From Myxococcales bacterium (GTDB lineage Bacteria; Myxococcota_A; Polyangia; Polyangiales; Houyiibacteriaceae): a DNA stretch of 64,000 nt. Under the pieces are notes generated by a model. It was not told the DNA's origin. It did no database searches and saw nothing but the letters and a program-made list of their open reading frames with translations. The stretch lies in assembly GCA_029863605.1 (NCBI GenBank), contig JAOTVB010000001.1, positions 1 to 64,000 on the forward strand. The letters run 5' to 3'. A program made the position numbers and the translations under genes. Shown in pieces: positions 8,768-27,075 of this stretch; within the stretch, counting starts at the first letter, position 1; each line of letters begins with the position of its first letter.

Positions 8768-9997
<1,230 letters not shown>

Positions 9998-10012
9998 CGC
10001 GAGAACGCGGTG

Positions 10013-10861
10013 ATGAACTATTTTCAGACATTCCGGGACGCTGCGATCGTGATCGCTCTTCTGATCGTCCCGCTTCTCTTTCTCCGTGCTCACCTCAAAG
10101 ACCCTTCCAAGCTCTCACGGTTCGACCATGCGATCCTACAGGTGAGCGGTCCTATACAATACACCGCCGAGTGGGCTGCAGACGCGGCGACTGGCATCAT
10201 CGGGGACTACGTCTATCTCGTCGATGTGAATCGTGACAACGACCACCTACGCGCGGAGAACGACCGCCTGCGAAGTGAGATTCGCGCGCTTCGAGCGGAC
10301 GCTCAGCGCATTTACAAGCTCGAAGCGCTGCTCGGGTTGCGCGAGCGTCTCTCGACGGAGAGCGTGAGTGCGAGGGTCATCGCCAAAGACATCTCGCCGT
10401 CGTTTAGAGTAGTGAGGCTCGCGATCGACCAAGGTGAACGCTCGGGTGTCCAGCCGGGGATGCCGGTGGTGTCCAACGAGGGGTTGGTGGGGCAGGTCCG
10501 TCGAATCTCCGGTCGGTTCGCCGATGTGCTCCTGACGATCGATCCGCAAAGCCGCGTCGATGTGGTCGTCGGCGACCAGCGTGCGCGCGGGCGGTTGGAG
10601 GGCCTGGGCGAGCGGAGCCGCTACCGCGGGCGCATTCAGTTCGACCGAGTCGATGATGAGGTTGGGGTTGGCGACGAGGTCTACACGTCGGGTCTCGGGA
10701 AGAAATTTCCTGCCTCGATCCTCATAGGATACGTGAGCAAGATCAACGACCAGGAATTTGGGCTCCACCAGGAGGGGGAAGTGACTCCTTCGGTCGATTT
10801 CACGCGGCTCGACGAGGTGTTAGTCCTGACGTCTGGTCCCAAGGACTCGGACGCCTTCTAG
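10013..10861 (+). CDS. mreC: Rod-shape-determining protein MreC
   Basis: A 282-residue bitopic membrane protein of the elongasome. There is one N-terminal transmembrane helix (~residues 10-24, AAIVIALLIVPLLFL), then a coiled coil (~70-105, heptads around NDHLRAENDRLRSEIRALRAD), then the beta-rich periplasmic domain (VVRLAIDQGERSGVQPGMPVV onward). MreC links MreB to PBP2 and RodA. A GTG at 10010 directly before the ATG is an alternative start. It is 15 bp downstream of mreB and 10 bp upstream of mreD. Confidence 0.93.
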   Translation: MNYFQTFRDAAIVIALLIVPLLFLRAHLKDPSKLSRFDHAILQVSGPIQYTAEWAADAATGIIGDYVYLVDVNRDNDHLRAENDRLRSEIRALRADAQRIYKLEALLGLRERLSTESVSARVIAKDISPSFRVVRLAIDQGERSGVQPGMPVVSNEGLVGQVRRISGRFADVLLTIDPQSRVDVVVGDQRARGRLEGLGERSRYRGRIQFDRVDDEVGVGDEVYTSGLGKKFPASILIGYVSKINDQEFGLHQEGEVTPSVDFTRLDEVLVLTSGPKDSDAF

Positions 10862-10871
10862 AGGGGGACGG

Positions 10872-11387
10872 ATGCAAGGGCTCAGAAGCAGTATCCTCAT
10901 CGTCCTGATCGCATTCGGGATGCTGTTGGCGCAATCCTCCTTCGCGAAGGTTCTGTCTCCGTATCCATTCTCGCCCTACCTCGGGCTGCCGTTGGTGTTC
11001 GCGCTCGGCACTGCCCCCGGTGTGCGGCTCGTTCGCGGCGCAGCGACATCCTTTGCCCTCGGCTACCTCTTCGACCTCTTCACCGGGAACCCCCTCGGGA
11101 TTCACACCTTGGTGTTCGTCATCGGCTATTTGGCGTCGTGGCTGGTCGGGTACCTCATGTCGTTTCGTGGCGTCTTGTTCGAGATGGCGCTCACCTTCGG
11201 TTTGACGATCTCGATCGGCGGGCTGATCGAAATCATTCGCTCTTTTTCGCCAGGCGGCATGGCCTGGGACGGCGGAGCGCTCGCCCTGGCGCTCTTCGCA
11301 TCCGGGTTTGCCACTTCGCTCGTGTCGCCACTCCTCTTCGCATTGGTGCGCTGGGTCGACCCGGAGTCGGCGCGGGCTCCAACATGA
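10872..11387 (+). CDS. mreD: Rod-shape-determining membrane protein MreD
   Basis: A 171-residue, very hydrophobic inner-membrane protein with about five predicted transmembrane helices (LIVLIAFGMLLAQSSF; a VFALGTAPGVRLVRGAATSFALG region; LVFVIGYLASWLVGYLM; MALTFGLTISIGGLIEII; ALALFASGFATSL). Sequence conservation in MreD is low, so the call depends on topology, size and position between mreC and mrdA. The stop overlaps the PBP2 start (ATGA at 11384-11387), which suggests coupled translation. Confidence 0.88.
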   Translation: MQGLRSSILIVLIAFGMLLAQSSFAKVLSPYPFSPYLGLPLVFALGTAPGVRLVRGAATSFALGYLFDLFTGNPLGIHTLVFVIGYLASWLVGYLMSFRGVLFEMALTFGLTISIGGLIEIIRSFSPGGMAWDGGALALALFASGFATSLVSPLLFALVRWVDPESARAPT

Positions 11388-13249
11388 TCACGCTTTCGCA
11401 GCGCCGCGAGGTCGGCGAGTTCCGCAAGCGATACCGGTGGATGGCGCTTTTCGTCGTGCTCGTATTCGGAACCCTCATCGTACGCGTAGCGCAGGTGCAG
11501 CTCTTCCAGCGCAATCGCTGGTCCGGTATTGCCCAACAGAACATCACGAAGACACTCGAGCTCCCGGCGACCCGCGGCGTGATTCGCGACGTCGCAGGTC
11601 GCGTCGTTGCCTCGAACAGACCTTCGTACAACGTCCATGCCACGCCAGGCCTTCTCCGTATCCCTGAAGACGTCGAACGGATCGCTACGTTGATGGGGCT
11701 TTCCGAAGAGGACACCGCCGCGCTCACCACACGGCTCGTCGAGCTGCCCGAAAACCGCCGCACGCACCAACTCGAGCTCTACAGCGACATCTCTCGCGAG
11801 CAGCTGGCGGCCCTCGAAACCCACCTCGCCGAGCTTCCTGCTCTCGACATCGTGACCGTCCCGCTTCGCGACTACCCCTATGCGACCCTCGGCGCGCACC
11901 TCATCGGCTATTTGAACGAGGTGAACGAGACCGACCTTCGCGATGCCCCTGACCCCGGCATCTATCGAGCCGGTGACCGCATGGGCCGAAGCGGCCTCGA
12001 GCGTCGCTACGAGGAGCTCCTACGGGGGACGCGAGGCTATCGCCGTGTCGTCGTCGACGCGCGTGGAAGAGCCCTCGAAGGCACGCGACCCCAATCCCTC
12101 GAAGTCGAAATGCTCAAGAAGCCCGTCCCCGGTCACGAGCTCCAGCTCACCATCGACATGCAGCTCATGGAGGCGCTCGATCGAGCGTTTCGCCAGCATC
12201 CCTCCGGCGCCGCCGTGGTCGTCGACATCCACACCGGCGCGGTTCGCGCGCTCTACTCGAAGCCAGTCTACGATCCGAACGAAATGAGCAGCGGCCTCAG
12301 CACCCAACGCTACCAAGAGCTCACGTCGGATCCGTTCCGTCCCCTGATCGACAAGACGATCTACGAGACCTATTTTCCCGGCTCTACCTTCAAGGTCATC
12401 ACTGCGCTCGCGGCCCTACAGGACTCCGTCGTCGACCCGATGCAGCGCGTCGAATGCCTCGGGTCGATCAAGATCGGCAGGCAGAAATTTCGCTGCAACC
12501 ACCGTCACGACTGGGTCGACCTATACGATGCGATCGTTCAGTCCTGTAATGTGTACTTCTGGGAGCTCGCCGAAAAGGTCGGCCTCGAGCGCATCAATCG
12601 TTACGCCGAGGCCGTTGGATTCGCGGAGCGATCGGGAATCGGCGTCAACAGTGAGGCGAAGGGATTCTTGGCGACGCGCGACTGGTACAAAGAGCACTAC
12701 GGAGCGTTTCGTCCAGGCTACACCCTCAATACGGCGATCGGGCAGGGCAACACCCGGGTCACCGTGTTGCAACTAGCGATGGCGTACGCAGCGATCGCCA
12801 ACGGCGGTACCTTGTACGTTCCACAGGTCGTTCAGAACGTGAAGGCGCCCGACGGCTCGCTTTCCGAGACCTTCCAGCCCAGAGTGCGGCGCGAGATCCG
12901 GGTCTTGCCGGAGCACTTGGAGCTGCTCCGGCGTGCGCTCACGGGCGTTGTCAACGAAGAGTTGGGAACCGCATACCGTGCGCGAACGCGGGAGGGGCCG
13001 CTCATCGCGGGCAAGACCGGCACGGCACAGGTCGTGAGCCGTAAGAGTCGGTCGGGGGAGTCGTCGAGCGCCTGGTACCTCGACCGCTCTCACGGATGGT
13101 TTGCCGGCTACGCACCTGCCGACGACCCCCAGGTGGCCTTCGCCGTACTGGTGGAGCACGGTGGATCGGGAAGCACCAGCGCGGCGCCGATTGCCGTGAT
13201 GGTGATGCAGGAGTACCTGCGAGAGCCCGAGGGTGAGGAGCCCGAATAG
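11384..13249 (+). CDS. mrdA: Penicillin-binding protein 2 (elongation-specific transpeptidase)
   Basis: A 621-residue class B penicillin-binding protein that cross-links lateral-wall peptidoglycan. It has one N-terminal membrane anchor (~19-36), a dimerisation/pedestal domain, and a transpeptidase domain with SxxK S334TFK337, SxN S387CN389 and KTG K544TG. The start ATG at 11384 overlaps the mreD stop; longer upstream reading in this frame is a shadow of mreD. Its partner glycosyltransferase RodA follows, with the PBP2 TAG at 13247-13249 sharing its last base with a possible GTG start. Confidence 0.96.
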   Translation: MITLSQRREVGEFRKRYRWMALFVVLVFGTLIVRVAQVQLFQRNRWSGIAQQNITKTLELPATRGVIRDVAGRVVASNRPSYNVHATPGLLRIPEDVERIATLMGLSEEDTAALTTRLVELPENRRTHQLELYSDISREQLAALETHLAELPALDIVTVPLRDYPYATLGAHLIGYLNEVNETDLRDAPDPGIYRAGDRMGRSGLERRYEELLRGTRGYRRVVVDARGRALEGTRPQSLEVEMLKKPVPGHELQLTIDMQLMEALDRAFRQHPSGAAVVVDIHTGAVRALYSKPVYDPNEMSSGLSTQRYQELTSDPFRPLIDKTIYETYFPGSTFKVITALAALQDSVVDPMQRVECLGSIKIGRQKFRCNHRHDWVDLYDAIVQSCNVYFWELAEKVGLERINRYAEAVGFAERSGIGVNSEAKGFLATRDWYKEHYGAFRPGYTLNTAIGQGNTRVTVLQLAMAYAAIANGGTLYVPQVVQNVKAPDGSLSETFQPRVRREIRVLPEHLELLRRALTGVVNEELGTAYRARTREGPLIAGKTGTAQVVSRKSRSGESSSAWYLDRSHGWFAGYAPADDPQVAFAVLVEHGGSGSTSAAPIAVMVMQEYLREPEGEEPE

Positions 13250-13251
13250 TG

Positions 13252-14361
13252 ATGGCGATCGGTAGAACCATCCGTGACGAGTTCGATTGGCCGCTCTTCA
13301 TCGCGGTCTCGACCATCGCTCTTTTCGGTGTTCTCAACTTGTACAGCGCTACCGACGGTGGAACGACTTCCGATGCGTACGTACAGCAGCTCTACTGGCT
13401 CATTCTCGGGTTCGGGGCGGCCGGCGTCACTGTCGCGATCGACTATCGATACTTCGAGCGTTACGGCTGGGTCATCTACGGCGCCTGCATTCTCGCCCTC
13501 GTGTTGGTGTTCGTCCTCGGAAAGAGCGTTCGTGGGTCTACCCGATGGATCGCACTTGGCGGTTTCTCGCTCCAGCCGAGCGAGCTGATGAAGATCGGGC
13601 TCGTCATCGCGCTCGCCAAGTACCTCCACCACGACACCAAGACCGGCGGACGCACGCTTGCGGATCTGATCATTCCAGGACTAATCCTCGCCCTGCCAAC
13701 GGCCCTCGTCCTTCTTCAACCGGATCTCGGGACGGCCATGGTGCTCGCATTCATCTTCGCCAGCGTGATGATGCTGACCGAGCTCAAGGCCCGTTCGGTG
13801 GTCACCCTCATCGCGACCTTCGTGGTCGCTGCACCGGTTACTTGGTTCTACTTGCTCAAGGACTACCAAAAAGAAAGGATTACCGCGTTCTGGAGCCGCG
13901 TCGGGGGTACCCAAGCCGACCTTTTGGACTCCGGCTGGCATGCTCACCAGTCGCTCGTCGCGATCGGCAGTGGTGGCCTGGCCGGGAAGGGCTTCACCCA
14001 GGGCACCCAAACCCGCTTTCGATTCCTTCCCGACCAGCACACCGATTTCCCTTTCCCGGTGTGGGCGGAGGAACACGGCTTCATCGGGGCGATCTTGCTG
14101 ATCAGTCTATACCTGTTCTTGATTCTCTGGGCGCTTCGGATCGCCTCGCAGGCCAAAGACCGCTTTGGGGCAGTTGTCGCCGTGGGCGTCGGCGCCATGA
14201 TCTTCTGGCAAACCGTGGTCAACCTCGGGATGGTGTCCGGGCTGCTTCCGGTGGTCGGGATGACACTGCCGCTGTTCTCCTATGGCGGATCGAGCCTGCT
14301 CTCGACGATGCTCGGGCTCGGGTTGCTGATGAACGTATCGATGCGGAGGTTTTCACATTGA
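13252..14361 (+). CDS. rodA: SEDS peptidoglycan polymerase RodA
   Basis: A ~369-residue multi-pass membrane protein of the SEDS family (RodA/FtsW/SpoVE) that polymerises lipid II into glycan strands with PBP2. About ten transmembrane segments can be seen. SEDS signatures include KSVRGSTRWIALGGFSLQPS near residues 86-105, LQPDLGTAMV, and the C-terminal GLLPVVGMTLPLFSYGGSSL motif. A GTG at 13249 is an alternative start, one codon upstream. The 3' end overlaps the TTG start of the Nit-type amidase. Confidence 0.95.
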   Translation: MAIGRTIRDEFDWPLFIAVSTIALFGVLNLYSATDGGTTSDAYVQQLYWLILGFGAAGVTVAIDYRYFERYGWVIYGACILALVLVFVLGKSVRGSTRWIALGGFSLQPSELMKIGLVIALAKYLHHDTKTGGRTLADLIIPGLILALPTALVLLQPDLGTAMVLAFIFASVMMLTELKARSVVTLIATFVVAAPVTWFYLLKDYQKERITAFWSRVGGTQADLLDSGWHAHQSLVAIGSGGLAGKGFTQGTQTRFRFLPDQHTDFPFPVWAEEHGFIGAILLISLYLFLILWALRIASQAKDRFGAVVAVGVGAMIFWQTVVNLGMVSGLLPVVGMTLPLFSYGGSSLLSTMLGLGLLMNVSMRRFSH

Positions 14362-17614: not shown

Positions 17615-18625
17615 TTACTTGGCCGCGGTCTCGACGGCGCGAAGGAGCGACTTGCTGTAGACGCCGCGCTCTGCCAGGCGCTCGCGCGCTTTCTTGGCTG
17701 TCGCATCCCATGCGGCTTGGTGAGCGGCCGTGTCGACGACCGTGATGCCTCGGGTGACGAGGGTCTCATAGGCTCGGTCGTCGTCGCGTTGCACGATCTG
17801 GTCGAGCTTTTCGGCGGCCCGTTTGGCGGTAGCGAGCAGAGTCTCTTGGTCCTCGGCCGTCAGCGCGTCGAATTTCTTCTTACTGATGACCGAGCCCCCC
17901 ACGATGATGTTGAAGTTGCCCGACGTCATCGCTTTGAGCCGCGTATACCATTGGAAAGCAACCGCAGCCATCGCCGACGCCGGGACGATCTGGAGCTTGT
18001 CGTTCCCAAGAGCGGGGAACACGCCCGAGGCGCCGACTCGAACTGGATTGGCTCCGATCGCTTTCACGAATTCCTCGACGACGGCGTTGTCTTTGCCGGC
18101 CCAGGCCGGCTGCTTGGCTAGGTCGGCCGGGCTCGAGAACGCCGTCGAAGAAAAGACGCGGTTCTTTCCGCCGTCACCCCAGGTGAGAAGCTTGAATCCG
18201 CCGTCCTCGATCATCTTTTGAAGGCGCTCGTCGAGCTTCGTTCTTGCCTGGTCTAGGGCCGCGTCGGTCGTCAGCAACCCAGGTGCGGTGAGCACCTGTA
18301 CCTCTGGGGCGATCAGGCTCAGCCCGGTCGTAGCGACCCCCGCCGCATCTAGCTTTCCCGTCTTGATCTTTCGAATCAGGTCGCGATCGTCGCCTTCGCT
18401 ACCCCCCGAAAAGACACGGAGCTCGACGCGCCCTTCGGTCTCCTTTTCGAGGGTACGGCTCCAGGCCTTGAGCACCTTCACGAATGACGAGCCTGGGGGC
18501 GCAAGGGAGGCGATGCGAATCGTAGTGGCCGCCTCGGCGTCCACACTCGACACAGTCGCGCTACCCGGAAACAACAGGGCGGCCGCCGTCAGCGCCGCGA
18601 TGCAAAACAGTCTCCAGCGAGTCAT
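17615..18625 (-). CDS. TRAP-type transporter solute-binding protein (DctP family), orphan
   Basis: A 336-residue periplasmic substrate-binding protein of the DctP/TAXI-like TRAP family. The N-terminal signal peptide (MTRWRLFCIAALTAAALLFP) is followed by TIRIASLAPPGSSFVKVLKAW, the typical first strand of DctP proteins. The specificity region KLQIVPASAMAAVAFQWYTR and the ISKKKFDALTAEDQE helix fit the fold. The start at 18625 has AAAGGGG upstream. No DctQ or DctM permease gene is present in the window, so the receptor must either partner a permease elsewhere or have another periplasmic role. It sits in a TetR - DctP - SnoaL - DUF1295 cluster. Confidence 0.85.
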   Translation of the reverse strand: MTRWRLFCIAALTAAALLFPGSATVSSVDAEAATTIRIASLAPPGSSFVKVLKAWSRTLEKETEGRVELRVFSGGSEGDDRDLIRKIKTGKLDAAGVATTGLSLIAPEVQVLTAPGLLTTDAALDQARTKLDERLQKMIEDGGFKLLTWGDGGKNRVFSSTAFSSPADLAKQPAWAGKDNAVVEEFVKAIGANPVRVGASGVFPALGNDKLQIVPASAMAAVAFQWYTRLKAMTSGNFNIIVGGSVISKKKFDALTAEDQETLLATAKRAAEKLDQIVQRDDDRAYETLVTRGITVVDTAAHQAAWDATAKKARERLAERGVYSKSLLRAVETAAK

Positions 18626-18711
18626 CGTGAACCCCTTTACTACAAGCCAGTTGAGGGTACCAACCGGCTCCGCCCTTGGACGGCCCCGGCTCGGCGGCCA
18701 TTCACTTTCGG

Positions 18712-19332
18712 TTAAAGGCCCAGCGCGGGCACGAATCTGCGCCTGAGGAAATCGCGCAACTCTTGCTCGCTTCGCTGGGGATCCGGGGAGGCGAGAAACG
18801 ACATGATCAAGCGGAGCATGTACTCCATGACCTCGGTCGCTTCGGCTTCGTCCCAACCCGCGGCGTCGATGAAGTCGCTGAATGCGATCCTGGTGAACGC
18901 GATCGAGGCGGGCTGTGTGAACCCGCGCAACACGACCGCATCGAAGACCGGTGGGCTCCAGACCTGTTTCAGGACTGGGTTTTCTCGAATGCCCTCGAGC
19001 GTGAAGACCATTGCTTCGACCGCGCCCTCCGTTGGGTCGTCGAAGCCTTTCATGTGGGTGCGCACTTCGTTTGCGAGGCGAAGGCCTGCCTGCAGCAGCA
19101 CGCAGCGAATCAGCTCATCGCGGTCCTTGAAATAGCGGTAGACAGTCGGTCGACTAACTCCCGCTTCGAGTGCCACGTGGGCTATCCCGGTGCCGGAGAT
19201 TCCGTCCCGGGCGACACAGTGCGCGGCGACCTCCAGCAGGCGTTCGCGTGCGGCGGTCCGGTGAGGCGGATCGCCGTCCCAAGCTGCACGACTGCTGAGC
19301 TCCTTCTTCTCGCTGGCGGAAGTTTGGGTCAT
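18712..19332 (-). CDS. TetR/AcrR-family transcriptional regulator
   Basis: A 206-residue TetR regulator. The N-terminal HTH domain is at ~26-72: the recognition region is IAHVALEAGVSRPTVYRYFK, followed by DRDELIRCVL. The rest is a helical ligand-binding domain with low conservation. The gene stands first on the minus strand, 86 bp upstream of the TRAP receptor gene, so local control of the DctP - SnoaL - DUF1295 genes is the simplest reading. No clear operator palindrome was found in 19333-19423, the likely promoter region. Confidence 0.9.
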   Translation of the reverse strand: MTQTSASEKKELSSRAAWDGDPPHRTAARERLLEVAAHCVARDGISGTGIAHVALEAGVSRPTVYRYFKDRDELIRCVLLQAGLRLANEVRTHMKGFDDPTEGAVEAMVFTLEGIRENPVLKQVWSPPVFDAVVLRGFTQPASIAFTRIAFSDFIDAAGWDEAEATEVMEYMLRLIMSFLASPDPQRSEQELRDFLRRRFVPALGL

Positions 19333-19423: not shown

Positions 19424-20262
19424 TCACAAAGACCAGTGTGCCGCGAGCAGGACTTGCGCTCCTATGAGGGCATTCGTCACGGTGTGAGCGATGATGGCAT
19501 CGGTGAGCAAGCCGCGGCGTGATGCGTGAAGGCATAACATAGGCCCGCAATGAAGCCCGCGACCCATTGCTGGTGCGCTGCTGCGAATGCCAATGACGAA
19601 ATGAGGACGGCTGGCCATCGAAACGTCTCGGGGACTTTCGTGAAGTCCCGGGCAATCAGGCGGCGCAACAAGAACCCCCGAAAGGCCAACTCTTCGACGA
19701 TCGGAACGGTCACGGTGGAGCCGAATACGCGTGCCGCGACCCAGATCATCGCAGCAGAAGCAGAGAGCTCGGCGAGGGCGGCCGGGGGGTCGTTGCTCAC
19801 CGGCGAATCGACACCCCACGCCGCGATCCATACCAGATACGCGACCACGCCGATTGTCACGGCCTGCCACGACCAGATGCTCCGACCCCGAAGGTGGCGA
19901 CGCAAACCCTCCAGGTAGTCTTTCCTGAACCATGCCAACACCGTGAGGGCGACCCCGATGCGCAGGGGATAGAGGTAGTCGAACTCTGAGACGAAGAGCC
20001 CGGTGACCAGCGCAGTCGCGACGACCGCGAGCAGCGGCAAGAGAAACCGCGCGCTCGGATCGCTCGTGAACCACGGGACCCGTTGGCTGACCCAGACGGT
20101 ACCGAGCGCACCGCGCAAAAGAACGCCCAGCCCGCCTTCGAATGAAAGCCCCTCCTTCGTGTTCAGGATTAAGCGCCGTCGCTCTTGCTGCCGGGGCACC
20201 GATTCTGACGCGGGCACTGAACCTGGCACTCGCATTGCCGCCACTGACCCTGCCGCTGCCAC
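19424..20262 (-). pseudogene. CPBP (CAAX-type) intramembrane protease with a C-terminal frameshift
   Basis: Two overlapping minus-strand frames together give one complete membrane protease. Frame A (from GTG 20262) has several transmembrane helices, the Abi/CPBP motif 1 E190-E191-x3-R195 (VEELAFRGF) and motif 2 His230 (FAAAHQQW). It then ends in a non-homologous tail (HHAAACSPMPSS). Frame B (stop at 19424) resumes with RRGLLTDAIIAHTVTNALIG, which carries motif 4 (HxxxN). Adding one base near 19515-19525 restores a continuous protein GLCYAFTHH-RRGLL. The overall layout resembles the CAAX-protease-related proteins linked to exosortase systems, but no exosortase is seen here. It is either a recent disabling mutation or a sequence error. 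The N-terminus is also doubtful because of the repeat there. Confidence 0.7.
20211..20262. repeat. Degenerate hexamer array (GGCACT/GCCACT type)
   Basis: Successive imperfect copies of a six-base unit (GGCACT-GAACCT-GGCACT-CGCATT-GCCGCC-ACTGAC style) cover the 5' end of the frameshifted protease gene. It is one of six such sites in the window (see 30417, 33649, 45353, 49992 and 50405). Confidence 0.45.
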
Positions 20263-20367
20263 CTGGTCTGTGCGGTCCCTTACACGATCGTAATTTTGCC
20301 TCCTAGCGGGCCTTGCTTTGCTTGCTTGAGCATAATATTTCCGTGATTCTGTTGAAGAGGAGGCCTC

Positions 20368-21315
20368 ATGGCTTATCGATGGCTTGGAATATTGCTGCTT
20401 TCGGCTGCTTGCATGGTCGGTTGCGGGACTGGAGGCTCGGATGGCCCACCATTTGGCACGGGCGGCTCTGGTGGCGCTGGCGGAGCAGGGGGAGGCATTG
20501 GCGGAGCTGGTGGATCCGGGCCGATGTGCATGACCAACTCGCTATGCCGCGGCTGTCCGACCGAAGATCTGTGCGACACCACGGACGATTGCTCTCCGGG
20601 ATTCGTCTGCCTCGAATCTGGGTGCGACAGCCTCGAGGGTGCGCCGATCAAACAGTGTGTCTTTGGCGGTGGCGGGGCCTGCGTCACCAACGACAACTGT
20701 CTCCCCTTTCCAGGACGCGAGTGCATCGACGTACCCGGTGAAGGCATGCGCTGCGTCAAGACGACGCCCGGCTGCGACACGAGGTTTGACTGCGTGCCTG
20801 GCTTCTCCTGCGAAAACGGTAGCTGTGTAGATCGTAGGCTTCCCTGCGACCTCGACGACCACTGCCCGAAGAACCACGTCTGCGTAGCCGGCACAAACGG
20901 GAGCTTCTGCGCGCGCGTCCAAGTCGAGTGCGTCGCGGAGTTCGACTGTGCTGGTCTCGCGCCTCGATGTGAGGATATCGACGGCGACGGCAACATGGAG
21001 TGCGCCGGTGTGTTCGATGCAAATCAGTCGATGCCGGTTGCTTGCCTGAACTCGGATTGCGCCGATGTGTCGGCACCCGTCTGCGAAACCGCAGGCGCAG
21101 GAAGCACGACTGTGTGCGGGCAGTACGGGCTTTGCCGCGACGGCGCAGACTGCGCGACTGGCTTCGATTGCGTTGGCCTTTGGCCCGATGGGCGCATGGA
21201 ATGCGTACCGAGCGGCGGGAGCTGCTCGAACGTGAGCGACTGTCCGGTACGACAGGTTTGTGCCTCTCCTCGCGAGGGCGGGACACCGAGCTGCCAAGCT
21301 GGATTCCTGAACTAA
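20368..21315 (+). CDS. Cys-rich lipoprotein with Gly-rich linker (paralogue 1)
   Basis: A 315-residue predicted outer-surface lipoprotein. The lipobox is CMVGC (Cys19), then a Gly/Ala linker (~20-51). The mature part holds over thirty Cys in repeats of the form C-x-DxDC or CxxxxDCxxGxxC (DDCSPGFVCLESGC, FDCVPGFSCENGSCVD, DHCPKNHVC, FDCAGLAPRC, ADCATGFDCVGLWPDG). These are typical of disulphide-knit or metal-binding extracellular domains in Myxococcota. GAGGAGG precedes the ATG. The next gene (21322) is a clear paralogue with the same order of motifs, only 6 bp away. Function unknown. Confidence 0.85.
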   Translation: MAYRWLGILLLSAACMVGCGTGGSDGPPFGTGGSGGAGGAGGGIGGAGGSGPMCMTNSLCRGCPTEDLCDTTDDCSPGFVCLESGCDSLEGAPIKQCVFGGGGACVTNDNCLPFPGRECIDVPGEGMRCVKTTPGCDTRFDCVPGFSCENGSCVDRRLPCDLDDHCPKNHVCVAGTNGSFCARVQVECVAEFDCAGLAPRCEDIDGDGNMECAGVFDANQSMPVACLNSDCADVSAPVCETAGAGSTTVCGQYGLCRDGADCATGFDCVGLWPDGRMECVPSGGSCSNVSDCPVRQVCASPREGGTPSCQAGFLN

Positions 21316-21321
21316 TACAAG

Positions 21322-22410
21322 ATGAACCGAACCGAACCCATATCGAGAATGAGCATCGCCCGCCACGGCTTGTGGTCGGTTGGCGCGGTGTCGCTCGCGC
21401 TCTTGGTCGGCTGCGGTGATAGCGGCCCGTCTGTCCCCAGGGGAACCGGAGGGACCAGTGGAACCGGAGCCTCCGGGGGTGTTGGCGCCACGGGTGGTAC
21501 TGGCATGGGCGGTAGCGGCGGCATGGCCGGCATTGTCGGGACCGGCGGCATGGGTGGCACGGTCGGGACAGGCGGCACGGGCGGGACCAGCGGCACGGGT
21601 GGCACCGGCGGTGCGACTGGCCCCTGCATGACCAATGCGCTTTGCCACACCTGTCCCACACAGTTGCCTTGCAACACCGACGACGACTGCGCGTTTAGCG
21701 GATATGTCTGCGTCGACTCGGGCTGCGATACCAACCAAGGCGCACCGATCAAGCAGTGCCAGCCACTGCACGGTGGCTCGTGCGCTTCCGTGACTGAATG
21801 TCCTAACTCCACGGACTACGCATGCGCTCCGATCGGGGTTGGGCCTACGCACTGCGTGAGGATCACACTGGGCTGCAGCCCGTCTACTGAGAGCTACGAT
21901 TGTCCGCTCGGCTTCTCCTGCGAGGCAGGCGCCTGTGTCGATCGTCGCGTCCCGTGTGACAGTTACCTCGACTGCCCGAAGAGCCACGTCTGCAAGGTGA
22001 CCCCAACGGCGGACTTCTGCGTTCGCACCTTCCAAACCTGCCATCTCGATGAAGATTGCGCGGGGCTCGGCGAGTTTTGCGCCGACATCGACAACAACGG
22101 CACCAAAGAGTGTGCCGGCGGCGCGGGCAGCCCATGCCTCAACGCAAGCTGTCCGTCCACCGTCCCGGTTTGCGAGGTCGGTGCCGTCGCCACCGACGTT
22201 GCGTGTGGCGACTACGGATTGTGCCGCTCCAATAGCGACTGCGATGAAGCGGCTGGCTTTGAATGCGTCGGCCTTTGGCAAGACGGTCGCAAAGAATGCG
22301 TTCGAGCCGGCGGTACGTGTGACCAAGTAACGGACTGCGACCCCCAGCAGGTCTGTGCAGCCCCTCGCAATGGCGGCGCGCCGAGCTGCCAAGCCGGAAG
22401 TGTTCCTTAA
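21322..22410 (+). CDS. Cys-rich lipoprotein with Gly/Thr-rich linker (paralogue 2)
   Basis: A 362-residue tandem paralogue of the gene at 20368. The lipobox is LLVGC (Cys31 from this ATG; Met10 at 21349 is an alternative start giving a more usual signal length). A long GTGG/GTSG linker (~41-98) is followed by the same ordered blocks as its neighbour: CMTNALCHTCP, DDCAFSGYVCVDSGCD, GAPIKQC, FSCEAGACVDRRVPCD, LDCPKSHVC, GLGEFCADID, DYGLCRSNSDC, FECVGLWQDGRKECV, CDPQQVCAAPRNGGAPSCQAG. The linker is longer than in paralogue 1. It ends 10 bp before the GTG of the VWA lipoprotein and provides its Shine-Dalgarno. Confidence 0.85.
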   Translation: MNRTEPISRMSIARHGLWSVGAVSLALLVGCGDSGPSVPRGTGGTSGTGASGGVGATGGTGMGGSGGMAGIVGTGGMGGTVGTGGTGGTSGTGGTGGATGPCMTNALCHTCPTQLPCNTDDDCAFSGYVCVDSGCDTNQGAPIKQCQPLHGGSCASVTECPNSTDYACAPIGVGPTHCVRITLGCSPSTESYDCPLGFSCEAGACVDRRVPCDSYLDCPKSHVCKVTPTADFCVRTFQTCHLDEDCAGLGEFCADIDNNGTKECAGGAGSPCLNASCPSTVPVCEVGAVATDVACGDYGLCRSNSDCDEAAGFECVGLWQDGRKECVRAGGTCDQVTDCDPQQVCAAPRNGGAPSCQAGSVP

Positions 22411-22420
22411 GGAGGAAAAC

Positions 22421-24853
22421 GTGAAACCCCAAGCCCTGACCCCTTTGATTCTCTTCTCGTTCGCAGTCGCGCTGCCCGCGTGTCAGAGCGGCGATCCTTC
22501 GGTGGAGGCCGCCTACCAAGCGGTCGTCACCGCGCCCACATCCTGTGGCAACGGCGACCCCACCTGCAACACCGCCATCGACTACCCCGAGCAGATCGAT
22601 CTCAGTGTCACCAACTCGAGCGACCTCTTGTTTTCGAGCGCCGACGGCGCGCTCACCCTCGTCGGCGGCAGCGGTAGTGCAGCCCTCGGCGATACAGATG
22701 GCGACGGGGTGCCCGACCCGGCCGACGATTGTGCGGGGCCTGGTTGGCGACTTCCCTGCGATGGTGACAAGGACGACGACGGCGCCTACCAGACCGCCTA
22801 TTACGACTCGGGCGGCGACAACACTGTGTCCGCCAGCATCGAGATCCAGTCCGATATCCAGAGCGCCGACGTCTATATTCTCATGGATGCCACCGGCTCC
22901 ATGAGCGGCGAGCAGAACCAGCTCGTTACCGATTTGACGAGCGGAACCTTTGTCGACACGAACGACTGCCCGGGAGGCGCGGACACAGGCATCGTCGGAG
23001 CCATTCAGTGCGTGATTCCGGACGTCTGGATGGGCGTTGGGGACTTCAAAGAGGTTTCGTATCTACCGCACAACGACCGCTACGACATGGCGCCCTATCA
23101 CCACTACCTCGACACGACCAACAACATTCAGCAGGTGCTCGATGCCGTGTCCGCGTTCCGCGCCGACGGCAACAAGGACTACCCAGAGGCCCTCAGCCAA
23201 GCGCTTTACTCGGTTGTGACGGGGCAGGGCCTTGGAGACCTCGTACCGAATCGCGGCGCGTGTCCCTCGACGCCGGCAGCGCGCTGGGGCTACCCCTGCT
23301 TCCGCGACAGTGTGCTTCCAATCATCCTGCTGTTCAGCGACGCCGATATGTGGAACGGCCCGGTCGCCAACGGCCACACCTATGGCAATCCACCCTTTGA
23401 CGGGACCCTCGGCATAGGCACCCGGTTGCCGCCGGTGGAGCAGTCTCCGAACGTCCTTTACTCGAGCGACCCGTTCACGGCCTGGGATCTCGGGGACCTG
23501 ACCAACAAGTCGTTGACGTTGATGGGAAGCAACACCAACCTCGGAAACGACGCGGTGACCTGGGACAAGGGGCTCTGCCTGCAGTGCGGCGGCTCTGGGT
23601 GCTGGGCCGACGGGCGTGACGCATTCGTCAAGTTCTCCCTCAGCGGTCTGACCGACATGTTTGTGAGCGGCGAGGGCACCGCTTACCATACGACCAACGC
23701 CGCGCTCCTTGATTCAGCGCTTGCATTCGTCGATTGCAATCCCGGGCCCGGCGGCGGCGATTACTGGGGACGGCTGACTCAAACTCTGGGCGCCGGTGAT
23801 TGGTACGCGGTCTCGGACGCTTCGGTCGATCCAAGCACGTCGGTCTCCACTCGCCGGGGCAACTTTCAACTTCGGTTTCACAACCTGACCGCCGACCCCG
23901 GCGGGTACCCGAGCTGGCAGACCACCGACCTGCCCGTCCAATGGACCACGGTGGAAACCGAGCTGCTGGCCAACGGCGTGAAGCTCGTCAGCGTTGTCAG
24001 CCCCAACTCCGGAGGCTACATCGCCATGCCTGACCTGACCGAGCTCGGAATTGTCACCGGGTCGGTCGACCTGCTCGGTGATCCCTATCTCCAGCAGATC
24101 GCAGGCGACGGGTCGGGTCTCGGGACCGCGGTCCTCGATGCCATGCTCGCCCTGGTCGGCGACACACGACGGGATGTCACCCTTGTTCCCGAAGACAACT
24201 TGGCAACTCCCACGGTCGACGAGAGTCTTTTCGTGAGCGCGATCGTGGCCAAGGACTGCCCAGACAATGGCGTCCCCCAAAAATGCATCGGCGGCTCCGG
24301 GACTCCCATGTGTCTAGGGTGCCTCGCGGGAGCGAACATTGAGTTCGAGTTCCGCGTCGGGAACGACTTCGTGCCCCCAACGGCCACTCCGCAGGTCTTC
24401 GACTTCGATATGCGTGTGATGGTCGATGGCACGACCGAGATCGCCCGATATCCGGTTCGGATCATGGTGCCCCCGGCCGGATCCGACTACGGAGCGGGCT
24501 TCTACCAGAACACCTACGACTCCGATATCGTTTGTGAGATGCCACCTGAGCGACCCGACTGGGGCACGCTCACCTGGATCGGCTCGACCCCCTCGGACAG
24601 CACGGTCGAGTTCGAGTTCTTCACCGCGAACACCCTTGCCGAGCTCGATACTGTGATTCCGGTGTCGATCGTCTATCCGACCGACACGACCTTGCAGACG
24701 TACGATATCGGTGACGAGCTTCTCGCCGGCGGCGAGACAAACTTCTTGCCCTACCTCCGGGTGCGGGCCAAGCTCAACGCCTCGAGCGACGCGTTGAGCA
24801 CACCGATCTTCCAAGGATGGTCGATCGAGTTCCATTGCGTCCCATTTGATTAG
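22421..24853 (+). CDS. Large lipoprotein with VWA-like (MIDAS) domain and TSP3-type Ca-binding motif
   Basis: An 810-residue predicted lipoprotein. A GTG start at 22421 is set by AAGGAGG (22409-22415). The lipobox LPAC gives Cys21. Residues 91-104 (DTDGDGVPDPADDC) match a thrombospondin type-3 calcium-binding repeat. A VWA/integrin-beta-like domain follows, with the metal-ion site D156ATGSMS162 (ILMDATGSMSGEQ), a GVGDFKE strand and a C-rich LQCGGSGCW segment. The C-terminal third (~620-810) is beta-rich with a CxxC-x5-CxGC cluster and no recognised domain. Likely anchored at the outer membrane and exposed, binding protein or polymer ligands. It is the third gene of the lipoprotein operon; its 3' end overlaps the convergent PQQ gene by 4 bp. 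Confidence 0.85.
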   Translation: MKPQALTPLILFSFAVALPACQSGDPSVEAAYQAVVTAPTSCGNGDPTCNTAIDYPEQIDLSVTNSSDLLFSSADGALTLVGGSGSAALGDTDGDGVPDPADDCAGPGWRLPCDGDKDDDGAYQTAYYDSGGDNTVSASIEIQSDIQSADVYILMDATGSMSGEQNQLVTDLTSGTFVDTNDCPGGADTGIVGAIQCVIPDVWMGVGDFKEVSYLPHNDRYDMAPYHHYLDTTNNIQQVLDAVSAFRADGNKDYPEALSQALYSVVTGQGLGDLVPNRGACPSTPAARWGYPCFRDSVLPIILLFSDADMWNGPVANGHTYGNPPFDGTLGIGTRLPPVEQSPNVLYSSDPFTAWDLGDLTNKSLTLMGSNTNLGNDAVTWDKGLCLQCGGSGCWADGRDAFVKFSLSGLTDMFVSGEGTAYHTTNAALLDSALAFVDCNPGPGGGDYWGRLTQTLGAGDWYAVSDASVDPSTSVSTRRGNFQLRFHNLTADPGGYPSWQTTDLPVQWTTVETELLANGVKLVSVVSPNSGGYIAMPDLTELGIVTGSVDLLGDPYLQQIAGDGSGLGTAVLDAMLALVGDTRRDVTLVPEDNLATPTVDESLFVSAIVAKDCPDNGVPQKCIGGSGTPMCLGCLAGANIEFEFRVGNDFVPPTATPQVFDFDMRVMVDGTTEIARYPVRIMVPPAGSDYGAGFYQNTYDSDIVCEMPPERPDWGTLTWIGSTPSDSTVEFEFFTANTLAELDTVIPVSIVYPTDTTLQTYDIGDELLAGGETNFLPYLRVRAKLNASSDALSTPIFQGWSIEFHCVPFD

Positions 24854-27075
24854 CCGCCGCGCACCAACGTCAGCATCGGCTTAGGCGCATAGCCGGCGAG
24901 GTAGCCGCTTTCCTCGGCGACATAGACCCAGCCACGCTCGTCGACTCGCATGAGGTCGGGAACGAGGTCGCAGGGAAGGCTCGCCGAAAGCCGGGTTCCG
25001 TCGGCGGGTCGAACGACGTGCACAGACGATGCGGGCACGAAAAGTGCGCCCCCTCGAAGAACGGGCTCGAGCCTCCTCGGGATCTCGTCCGCCAGGGCAT
25101 CCGCGAGATTGGTCGACCACTGCACGTGGCCCGTGTGCACATCGAACGCGCTGAGCTGCCCAAAGGGCGCGTTGACGATCCAGGTGCCGTCGATCGTCAT
25201 GCCGGCGCCGCCGATGCCGAGGCCCGGGTCCTTCACGTCCCAAAGCGGCTCGCCTTGGTCGAGCGAATGCGCGGTGAGCGTGGCCTGCTCTCCCGCGGTG
25301 GAAACCAGGACGACGCTGGCAGCGCCCGATGGGTCCGACGTGGGTGGGCCTTGGAGCTCGCGCTGCCACCGGGGCTGCCCACTGTAGAGGTCGATCGCAT
25401 AGAGCGCGCCTTCGCGGCGGCCACGAACCGCGGCAGCCACCACCGTTTCGTCTCGGACCAAGGGTTTGAACTGAAAGCAGCCTCGTTCGGCGAATCTCCA
25501 GACATCTTCCCCGGTGGCGAGGTCGATGGCGTGAATCGCCTCTTCGCCGCAGGTCACGAGCAGCACGCGGCCTATCTTCGTCATTCGGAACTCGCCGCCG
25601 GTTCGAGATGCGAAGCGCCAACGCGGCTCCCCGGTGCGGATGTCGAGCGCAACCAATCGATCGCTGCCTTCGGTGATGACCGCAACGGGGGGAATGCTGC
25701 CGCCGCCGGCCATCAGTCCGCTCGGCGGGCCGCCAATGCGTGGCGTGATGTGCGTCGAGCAATAGGCCGCGCCGTCTTCGACGTTGCAGAGCTCGACCTC
25801 ACCGTCAGGCGAGAGCCGGATCAGCACCGAGCCAGCCATCAGGGTGGTGGAGGCCTGGCCCGGACGGGCCCAGAGCACCTGACCATCGTCGCGCGAGATC
25901 GCGACTACGTGGTTTTGGGTCGCGATGACCAGCCTATCGCCGCACATGAATACCGAGTTCGCGTCGAGCCCTTCGAGGCAGATCCGCCATCGCTCCTCGA
26001 ACTGGAGGGACGGCAGTCTTTCGGCCTTCGCGGTTGGTCCGGACTCCACCTCGTTGTGTATGCGAAGCCGGTCGGGGTCGAGGTTCACGAAGCTGTCGGC
26101 GTTACGCCGCGCCCGGATCTCCCGCCGCAGCGCCCGCACCTCTTGTCGGAGCGCACGCACGCGAAGGTTGCGGCTTTGCCCACGGTCGGAGGCGACCAGG
26201 CTTCGAAGGAGGTCGCTCGCCAGCTTGAGAATAGGGAGAGCCGCCTCTGCGATGCTCAGCGAGGTCGCAGTGAGATCGCCTCGGCCTTCGGAATGGAGCT
26301 CGACACTGACCAGTTGGTGAGACGACTTCCGCATCGCGATCTGAAAGCCGCCAGCCCGTAGACGGACATGCGTCGGCTGGGCGCTGTCCCAGGAATCTAC
26401 GAGGGTTCGCACCGCGACCACCATCCGATGCGCCGCCAGCATCAACGGGCCTTGCACGAGGGAGAGCCGACGTCCGCGTACGAACGCCCACAAATGGCCC
26501 TCGAAGAGAAGAGCATGAACGTCGGCCCGAACCGAGCGGCTCTGTGACGCAGAGGACGACGGATAGATCGCCGCTTCATATCCAAACGCGAGAGGCACTT
26601 CCGAGGGCGGAGCATCGAGCTCACCGCCTCGTTGATTGACAGCGGCGATCGGTCCTATAGGGTCCGGCGCAAGCTTGGTGGCAAGCGCCCGCTCTGCGAC
26701 TCGAATGGCAATCTGCCTGGCCGTCGGGTCGAGCTCCTGCCTCGCGGTTTCGAGCATCGCCTGTGCACAAGTGTGCAGGAGTAGCCTGAGCGGGACCGTG
26801 CGGTCGAGCTGATACACGACCGGGGCGCTGGCCGTCCCATAGCAACTGACCAACACCGAGTCTCCGCGCCGCACCAACGCGTACTCGATCGCACAAGTCG
26901 CGAGTGGCAATAGGACTTTGCGCTTTGCGCCGATCGCCAGCGCTGCCGTGGCGGCCGTGAGCTCCGCGAGCGCGGGAACCTCGACGTCGAGCTCGCTCCC
27001 GAGCAGCAGACGCGGGACCCCCGAATTCGTGCGTTTTTGTGCGTGTGAGACCGATTCGTCCAATGGCGCGACCAT
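24850..27075 (-). CDS. PQQ-like beta-propeller protein with novel N-terminal half
   Basis: A 741-residue protein. The C-terminal half (~360-735) holds repeated PQQ/WD-type blades with the form xVxAxDxxTGxxxW (VVAISRDDGQVLWARPG, LVALDIRTGEPRWRF, IHAIDLATGEDVWRF, LYAIDLYSGQPRWQRE, LSAFDVHTGHVQWS). The N-terminal half (~1-330) matches nothing I recognise and ends in an Arg-rich helical segment (LRVRALRQEVRALRREIRARR). No signal peptide is visible, so it is probably cytoplasmic, unlike BamB. A scaffold or sensor role is possible. Convergent with the VWA lipoprotein (4-bp overlap). Confidence 0.8.
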   Translation of the reverse strand: MVAPLDESVSHAQKRTNSGVPRLLLGSELDVEVPALAELTAATAALAIGAKRKVLLPLATCAIEYALVRRGDSVLVSCYGTASAPVVYQLDRTVPLRLLLHTCAQAMLETARQELDPTARQIAIRVAERALATKLAPDPIGPIAAVNQRGGELDAPPSEVPLAFGYEAAIYPSSSASQSRSVRADVHALLFEGHLWAFVRGRRLSLVQGPLMLAAHRMVVAVRTLVDSWDSAQPTHVRLRAGGFQIAMRKSSHQLVSVELHSEGRGDLTATSLSIAEAALPILKLASDLLRSLVASDRGQSRNLRVRALRQEVRALRREIRARRNADSFVNLDPDRLRIHNEVESGPTAKAERLPSLQFEERWRICLEGLDANSVFMCGDRLVIATQNHVVAISRDDGQVLWARPGQASTTLMAGSVLIRLSPDGEVELCNVEDGAAYCSTHITPRIGGPPSGLMAGGGSIPPVAVITEGSDRLVALDIRTGEPRWRFASRTGGEFRMTKIGRVLLVTCGEEAIHAIDLATGEDVWRFAERGCFQFKPLVRDETVVAAAVRGRREGALYAIDLYSGQPRWQRELQGPPTSDPSGAASVVLVSTAGEQATLTAHSLDQGEPLWDVKDPGLGIGGAGMTIDGTWIVNAPFGQLSAFDVHTGHVQWSTNLADALADEIPRRLEPVLRGGALFVPASSVHVVRPADGTRLSASLPCDLVPDLMRVDERGWVYVAEESGYLAGYAPKPMLTLVRGG

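Follow-up and report, generated by a model that had tools for sequence, protein, structure and literature searches.

Integrins are commonly held to have arisen in animals and the lineages closest to them, and the hybrid domain is the part through which they change shape. In the beta headpiece of animal integrins and of the Dictyostelium Sib proteins, a beta-I domain is set in the hybrid domain and carries residues of the metal-ion-dependent adhesion site (MIDAS) and the synergistic metal-binding site (SyMBS). The same plan is predicted here for the product of the third gene of a bacterial operon (genes A, B and C), located in a window of 64,000 nucleotides from a Myxococcales bacterium of the order Polyangiales (assembly GCA_029863605.1, contig JAOTVB010000001.1, positions 1 to 64,000, taken as a whole). 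The Pfam model Integrin_beta, too, matches both the eukaryotic proteins and members of the C family. Whereas integrin beta chains end in a transmembrane helix and a tail, the C protein is lipid-anchored, with no I-EGF stalk found, and has in addition a TSP3 loop, a PPC-like insert and a C-terminal beta-rich domain. Because the transmembrane and tail features are absent, we do not claim C as an integrin beta subunit as such. The integrin heterodimer further includes an FG-GAP alpha subunit; none is encoded in the operon, the part of the genome to which the search for FG-GAP was confined, and the propeller of the pyrroloquinoline quinone (PQQ) type encoded convergently at 24850-27075 is of another type than the FG-GAP propeller.

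Integrin-like proteins are already known from bacteria. CglD of Myxococcus xanthus is likewise a myxococcotal VWA lipoprotein and is described as integrin-like; the curated CglD model NF033765 does not match C, which is thus not CglD by that model. We know of no constant A-type partner for CglD. A bacterial integrin beta homologue is on record from Trichodesmium erythraeum (PMC3192720); it is likened to C by description, and the text consulted describes no partner gene for it. Bd0875 of Bdellovibrio, like C, combines a lipobox with a MIDAS-bearing VWA domain; in Bd0875 this domain is inserted in a small beta domain, and its MIDAS face is capped (PMC11003981). Judged by its description, it is set apart from C by its length of ~378 residues and by the lack of a described TSP3 loop or Cys-rich partner (PMC11003981). 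The literature that we searched holds no description of integrin-beta-like proteins in Polyangiales. What is new here is that a Cys-rich partner accompanies C in an order-wide operon, that a lipid anchor is combined with TSP3 and PPC modules, and that intact and degenerate copies occur as a pair. A preliminary description of the locus, made from the sequence, had recognised an operon of two Cys-rich lipoprotein paralogues and a VWA-like lipoprotein; beyond it, we find that C is predicted to be integrin-beta-headpiece-like, that A and C form a unit across the order and that the pair in the window arose by duplication.

Predicted fold and metal sites of the C protein

Gene C (22421-24853, plus strand) encodes a lipoprotein of 810 residues with the lipobox LPAC (Cys21). 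The AlphaFold2 model of C, built from 36 sequences, has a mean predicted local distance difference test score (pLDDT) of 81.5 and a predicted template modelling score (pTM) of 0.73. When the model was compared with the PDB, the best 50 rows were all integrin beta chains, both with Foldseek (E 1e-12 to 1e-8) and with VIA-align (Z 20-22, ~315 aligned residues). Residues ~117-686 of the model align to ~65-433 of the beta-3 chain, a range that takes in the beta-I domain and the hybrid domain on either side of it. The insertion of the beta-I (VWA) domain in the hybrid domain, which defines the integrin beta headpiece, is thus reproduced in the predicted structure. The best headpiece superposition was on 3ze2_D (model 117-685 on chain residues 65-433, 3.6 Å over 319 residues); for the beta-I domain by itself, 5ffg_B gave 2.7 Å over 219 residues. 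The entry 3ze2, as we understand it, includes an open headpiece; any conclusion on the activation state of C from a predicted model would be premature.

Profile searches point in the same direction. Among all PDB sequences, the only VWA-type matches of the C family profile were integrin beta chains (beta-3, E 1.1e-4), the other matches being an OmpA protein, hit through its TSP3 repeats, and two unrelated proteins (E 1.3 and 2.2). Pfam Integrin_beta matches 11 of the 36 C-family members (best 8e-7). The C paralogue encoded elsewhere in the same genome exceeds the cut-off of this model (31.8 bits against 24.8), and none of 14 control genomes matches it; the VWA model of the integrin-beta-like SIBA-E proteins matches 9 of the 36. 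The window C matches no NCBIfam family at E 0.1. The VWA-like character assigned to C in the preliminary description is therefore borne out, and according to the model it can be stated more specifically as integrin-beta-headpiece-like.

In the model, the N-terminal hybrid-like part of C (~residues 117-145, 22769..22855, plus strand as for all features below unless stated) corresponds to the start of the structural alignment, which pairs residue 117 with integrin residue 65. The beta-I domain follows in two parts, at ~residues 146-315 (22856..23365), which is also covered by the profile match to beta-3, and at ~residues 505-583 (23933..24169); they flank a PPC-like beta-rich insert (~residues 324-497, 23390..23911), a stretch that none of the seven copies compared from outside the genus contains and that has a PPC Pfam match in 4 of the 36 family members. 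The structural alignment ends with the C-terminal hybrid-like part (~residues 584-686, 24170..24478). A C-terminal beta-rich domain (~residues 690-808, 24488..24844), delimited by DSSP of the model, lies outside the PDB matches, and the chain stops at residue 810, just beyond it, with no terminal hydrophobic helix and hence without the transmembrane helix and tail that follow the I-EGF stalk of integrins. In front of the headpiece-like region, a single TSP3-like Ca2+ loop (DTDGDGVPDPAD, residues 91-102, 22691..22726) bears out the TSP3 motif named in the preliminary description; TSP_3 matches are found in 11 of the 36 members.

A MIDAS metal site in the modelled VWA domain had been set beforehand as a test, which C passes in that the residues expected at the metal sites are present. 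The motif DATGSMS (residues 156-162), named earlier as a MIDAS-type motif, contains D156-A-T158-G-S160 (22886..22900), which alignment places at the MIDAS, and a beta-I fold with D156, T158, S160, E256 and D307 at the metal positions is predicted, with Thr in place of the first Ser. D307 (23339..23341), within FSDADMWNGP, is invariant in the family and is the counterpart of beta-3 D251. The segment N251-K-D253-Y-P255-E256 (23171..23188) corresponds to the integrin NRDAPE motif, which contributes to the SyMBS and supplies the MIDAS Glu; the NxDxPE of C and NRDAPE are paired in the family-profile alignment to PDB integrin beta-3. Together with the acidic residue E211 (23051..23053), which we take to be the counterpart of beta-3 D158, residues N251, D253, P255 and E256 would make up a SyMBS in window-type C proteins. 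Of the acidic pair at the site adjacent to MIDAS (ADMIDAS), E164 is conserved and the other position is G163. The further numbering of the metal residues of C rests on the established numbering of integrin beta-3. Judged by alignment, window-type copies and most C copies outside the genus retain residues of the MIDAS and SyMBS types.

The A-C pair and its duplication

Genes A (20368-21315) and B (21349-22410, with an alternative start at 21322) encode Cys-rich paralogues of 315 and 353 residues, respectively, which are about 50-52% identical (E 6e-70). They share an ordered Cys pattern that runs through FDCVGLWPDG/FECVGLWQDG to a PSCQAG tail, from which the preliminary description had deduced a duplication. 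Indeed, the local alignment of A and B scores 692, far above the maximum of 231 in 200 shuffles that preserved the Cys positions, showing that the similarity exceeds mere Cys composition. Behind the lipid anchor, both proteins have a Gly-rich tether of ~30 to 70 residues; in A (38 Cys) it covers ~residues 20-52 and precedes a disulfide-rich region, and in B it is longer. Across the A family 30 Cys are invariant and several more nearly so, and the predicted structure of A (pLDDT 84, mostly >90 in the Cys-rich part) is disulfide-rich. Several family members resemble known Cys-rich repeats, with matches to Dickkopf_N (13 of 37), Ldl_recept_a (16 of 37, weakly), TIGR04201 Myxo_Cys_RPT (7 of 37, best 1.2e-9) and, in some, DUF7107. 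The window A does not match TIGR04201 and falls below the Dickkopf_N and DUF7107 models as well; in contrast to these repeats, what marks the A family is the Cys pattern as a whole together with the link to C.

Linkage of the homologues had been set beforehand as a test of the operon, and it was found. Among 282 genomes of the phylum, the A family occurs in 15, all but one of the same order; in 13 of these C follows directly downstream on the same strand, in one it is adjacent and convergent, and in one no C lies nearby. A larger set of loci from outside the genus includes 19 genomes in which C directly follows A in the same orientation, three in which the two are adjacent but convergent, and two with A and no C nearby; inside the genus, C is missing beside a single copy of A (G014). 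The convergent arrangement belongs to one genome group (L134, L136, L138 and L188). Integrin-like relatives of C occur more widely, in 54 of the 282 genomes (E 1e-25), so that the link to A is the distinguishing mark of this group. An apparent A-C fusion in one genome (G032, loci L084/L129) was rejected: A runs on in a second frame and C shares the frame of the initial part of A, a picture that resembles a frameshift rather than a fusion.

The same genome contains a second A-C copy (C7:243806-247216). At this old locus, lookalikes of the pyruvate dehydrogenase subunits E1alpha, E1beta and E2, labelled so from their sequence starts only, and a FAD-linked oxidase precede A and C, which are followed by a small membrane protein, a PMT-type glycosyltransferase and a CDP-alcohol phosphatidyltransferase. 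This context is kept across families and is taken as the ancestral place, whereas the window copy occupies a different, genus-wide place without PMT genes. In the old copy (L006:7807-13810, that is C7:243806-249809), the gene of a 312-residue membrane protein begins at most 27 bp behind the pair and is overlapped by a PMT_2 glycosyltransferase gene; glycosylation of the adhesins through this adjoining gene is possible.

The trees of A and C are concordant, each with an old-locus and a new-locus clade of the genus, and within the new-locus clade A and B form separate genus-wide clades. This indicates that A and C were duplicated jointly and that A was then doubled into A and B. The trees were rooted at the midpoint, and the direction of the duplication rests on synteny; on this basis, the window copy arose from the old A-C pair by duplication within the genus, and its A gene was doubled later.

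Operon layout, expression signals and surroundings

The coordinates of the three consecutive plus-strand genes (20368-24853) and the gaps of 6 and 10 bp that had been reported for them were reproduced. The stop of A at 21315 lies 6 bp before the first start of B (21322), and the start at 21349, which leaves 33 bp, fits equally well; 10 bp separate the end of B (22410) from the GTG start of C (22421). A longer start of C in the list of open reading frames (22355), likewise seen in several relatives, was rejected as an upstream extension into A/B. Of the strong ribosome-binding sites claimed for all three genes, those of A (AGAGGAGG, 20357..20364, GAGGAGG, directly 5' of the ATG) and of C (AAGGAGG, 22409..22415, overlapping the stop codon of B) hold, whereas gene B has no strong Shine-Dalgarno site at either candidate start; translation of B may therefore be coupled to that of A. 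The region upstream of the operon yielded no promoter-like site, a negative of little weight in this phylum.

As had been predicted, all three proteins begin with a signal peptide that ends in a lipobox-like Cys, as read from the sequence: MVGC in A (Cys19), off consensus at -3, and, closer to consensus, LVGC in B (Cys22) and LPAC in C. Compared with the nearest sister genome (G017), the ratio of nonsynonymous to synonymous substitution rates (dN/dS) is 0.149 for A, 0.164 for B and 0.157 for C, indicating that all three are real, constrained genes under purifying selection.

The source genome (4.2 Mb) is rated 100% complete; its closest named relatives are metagenome-assembled genomes of Myxococcales, among them Myxococcales bacterium SG8_38, which belongs to its genus, while its family includes metagenome-assembled genomes of the Sandaracinus type. 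These names would place it in the order Polyangiales of the phylum Myxococcota. Upstream, the operon is flanked by an Rce1-like protease gene (19477-20262, minus strand). Downstream, the PQQ-propeller gene (24850-27075, minus strand) encodes 741 residues in which no signal peptide is obvious. It converges on C, the two genes sharing 4 bases at their ends, and it adjoins C genus-wide (a cluster of seven loci). A lookalike of substrate-binding proteins of the TRAP type (DctP-like) is encoded near the new-locus operon at 17615-18856 on the minus strand; a relative lies near a lone A gene in another family (L089:3441-4484), and it is present in tandem in some members of the genus. Further upstream, an apparent cell-shape cluster extends over 8864-14361, from a MreB-like (8864-9997) to a RodA-like (13249-14361) gene.

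Proposed function and alternatives

The operon probably encodes a metal-dependent adhesion module of the outer membrane, in which the integrin-beta-headpiece-like C acts with A/B as its partner or stalk. Computation shows that C matches the headpiece in predicted fold and keeps the metal residues, that the three proteins carry lipoprotein signals, that A and C are linked and were duplicated together, and that purifying selection acts on all three genes. We infer that A, B and C are positioned at the cell surface, that the metal site of C grips an acidic group and that A/B act with C. In such a module, the three lipidated proteins would be held on the outer membrane, and C would present a head stabilised by Ca2+, the Mg2+ site of which would grip an acidic group on another cell, on the matrix or on A/B. 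The PPC-like insert may serve as a cap near the metal face, and A/B, disulfide-rich and lipid-anchored through Gly-rich tethers, would most likely be the partner or stalk of C. An adhesive role of the three proteins would be analogous to those of two described proteins: Bd0875, a lipobox MIDAS protein, requires its metal motif where predator and prey meet (PMC11003981), and CglB, a VWA protein of Myxococcus focal adhesions, mediates binding to the substrate during gliding (PMC13104615).

C could instead be an ordinary VWA/MIDAS lipoprotein adhesin of the Bd0875 or CglB type, its likeness to integrins being that of the shared VWA fold only. VWA domains are widespread, some C-family members are matched by generic VWA families, and the NCBIfam CglB model NF033757 matches two distant ones (best E 4.8e-9); we nevertheless consider this rather improbable, since the structural match runs past the VWA domain into the hybrid domain on both sides, integrin beta chains are the sole VWA-type PDB matches of the family profile and the integrin-beta-typical N-x-D-x-P-E site is present. 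There is little chance that C is a local form of CglD, the protein of Myxococcus gliding focal adhesions, and that the operon serves gliding motility. CglD is named, in a cited title and in mentions, an integrin-like gliding adhesin and a predicted lipoprotein with a VWA domain (PMC11752065, PMC11444678, PMC4488436), and relatives of GltC occur in all 57 genomes searched, but below the cut-off. NF033765, however, finds nothing in the source genome and passes its cut-off of 400 bits in none of 29 genomes, the window C lacks an NCBIfam match and no known gliding gene was recognised adjoining the operon. Another model tried for CglD, NF033756, proved to be that of GltC.

Other alternatives concern the partners and the orientation of the proteins. 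Constant linkage, joint duplication and congruent A and C trees suggest joint action, and A has been doubled, as might be expected if A/B and C bound each other between cells, in cohesion or kin recognition, rather than a foreign surface or matrix. These observations are also compatible with a cis complex formed on a single cell, however, and the dN/dS of 0.15 does not reveal the fast divergence expected of a recognition pair; we regard binding between cells as unlikely, though worth keeping in view. A similarly small but appreciable chance attaches to an obligate two-chain adhesion receptor that works like an integrin. In it, A/B would stand in for the alpha subunit or act as an inbuilt ligand, and C would contribute the integrin-beta head, complete with MIDAS, SyMBS and a hybrid domain able to move. 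Finally, a lipobox indicates anchoring and not orientation, and the old-locus clade has partly lost the metal site, as would suit non-adhesive lipoproteins that face the periplasm as a scaffold or in envelope assembly. Cys-rich repeats, Gly-rich tethers, TSP3 and PPC modules and integrin-type heads are typical features of extracellular proteins, making a periplasmic role of A, B and C quite improbable.

Several observations weigh against an integrin-like adhesion module. Most superpositions of the C model have a root-mean-square deviation near 7 Å, presumably from differing domain orientation, and the orientation of the hybrid and beta-I domains in a model from 36 sequences is uncertain. The window C itself reaches only a sub-threshold 13.1 bits with Pfam Integrin_beta, its sole Pfam hit. 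The A model has no fold match of note in the PDB (best Foldseek E 0.12, best Z 2.7), which does not imply a novel fold. Within the genus, the old-locus clade (L109-L116 and L118) often has Thr at S160 and has lost D253 and E256; the old C copy of the source genome has DxTxS and PE intact and Thr for D253, and a third subgroup in the genus (L103, L105 and L106) has DTSSKM/DTSAKM for DxTGSM, with Lys at S160. Judging from these degenerate sites, metal binding appears relaxed in some paralogues, and not every copy would need it. A surface adhesion or capture complex is plausible, with its contacts, ligand and exposure resting on inference.

If the proposed adhesion module is real, a bacterial lipoprotein with the whole plan of the beta headpiece and a conserved small partner would make the origin of this plan approachable, and it would raise the question of whether metal-gated, shape-changing adhesion exists outside eukaryotes. 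The intact site of the window copy and the partly degenerate sites of the old-locus clade, present in the same genus, offer a ready natural comparison.

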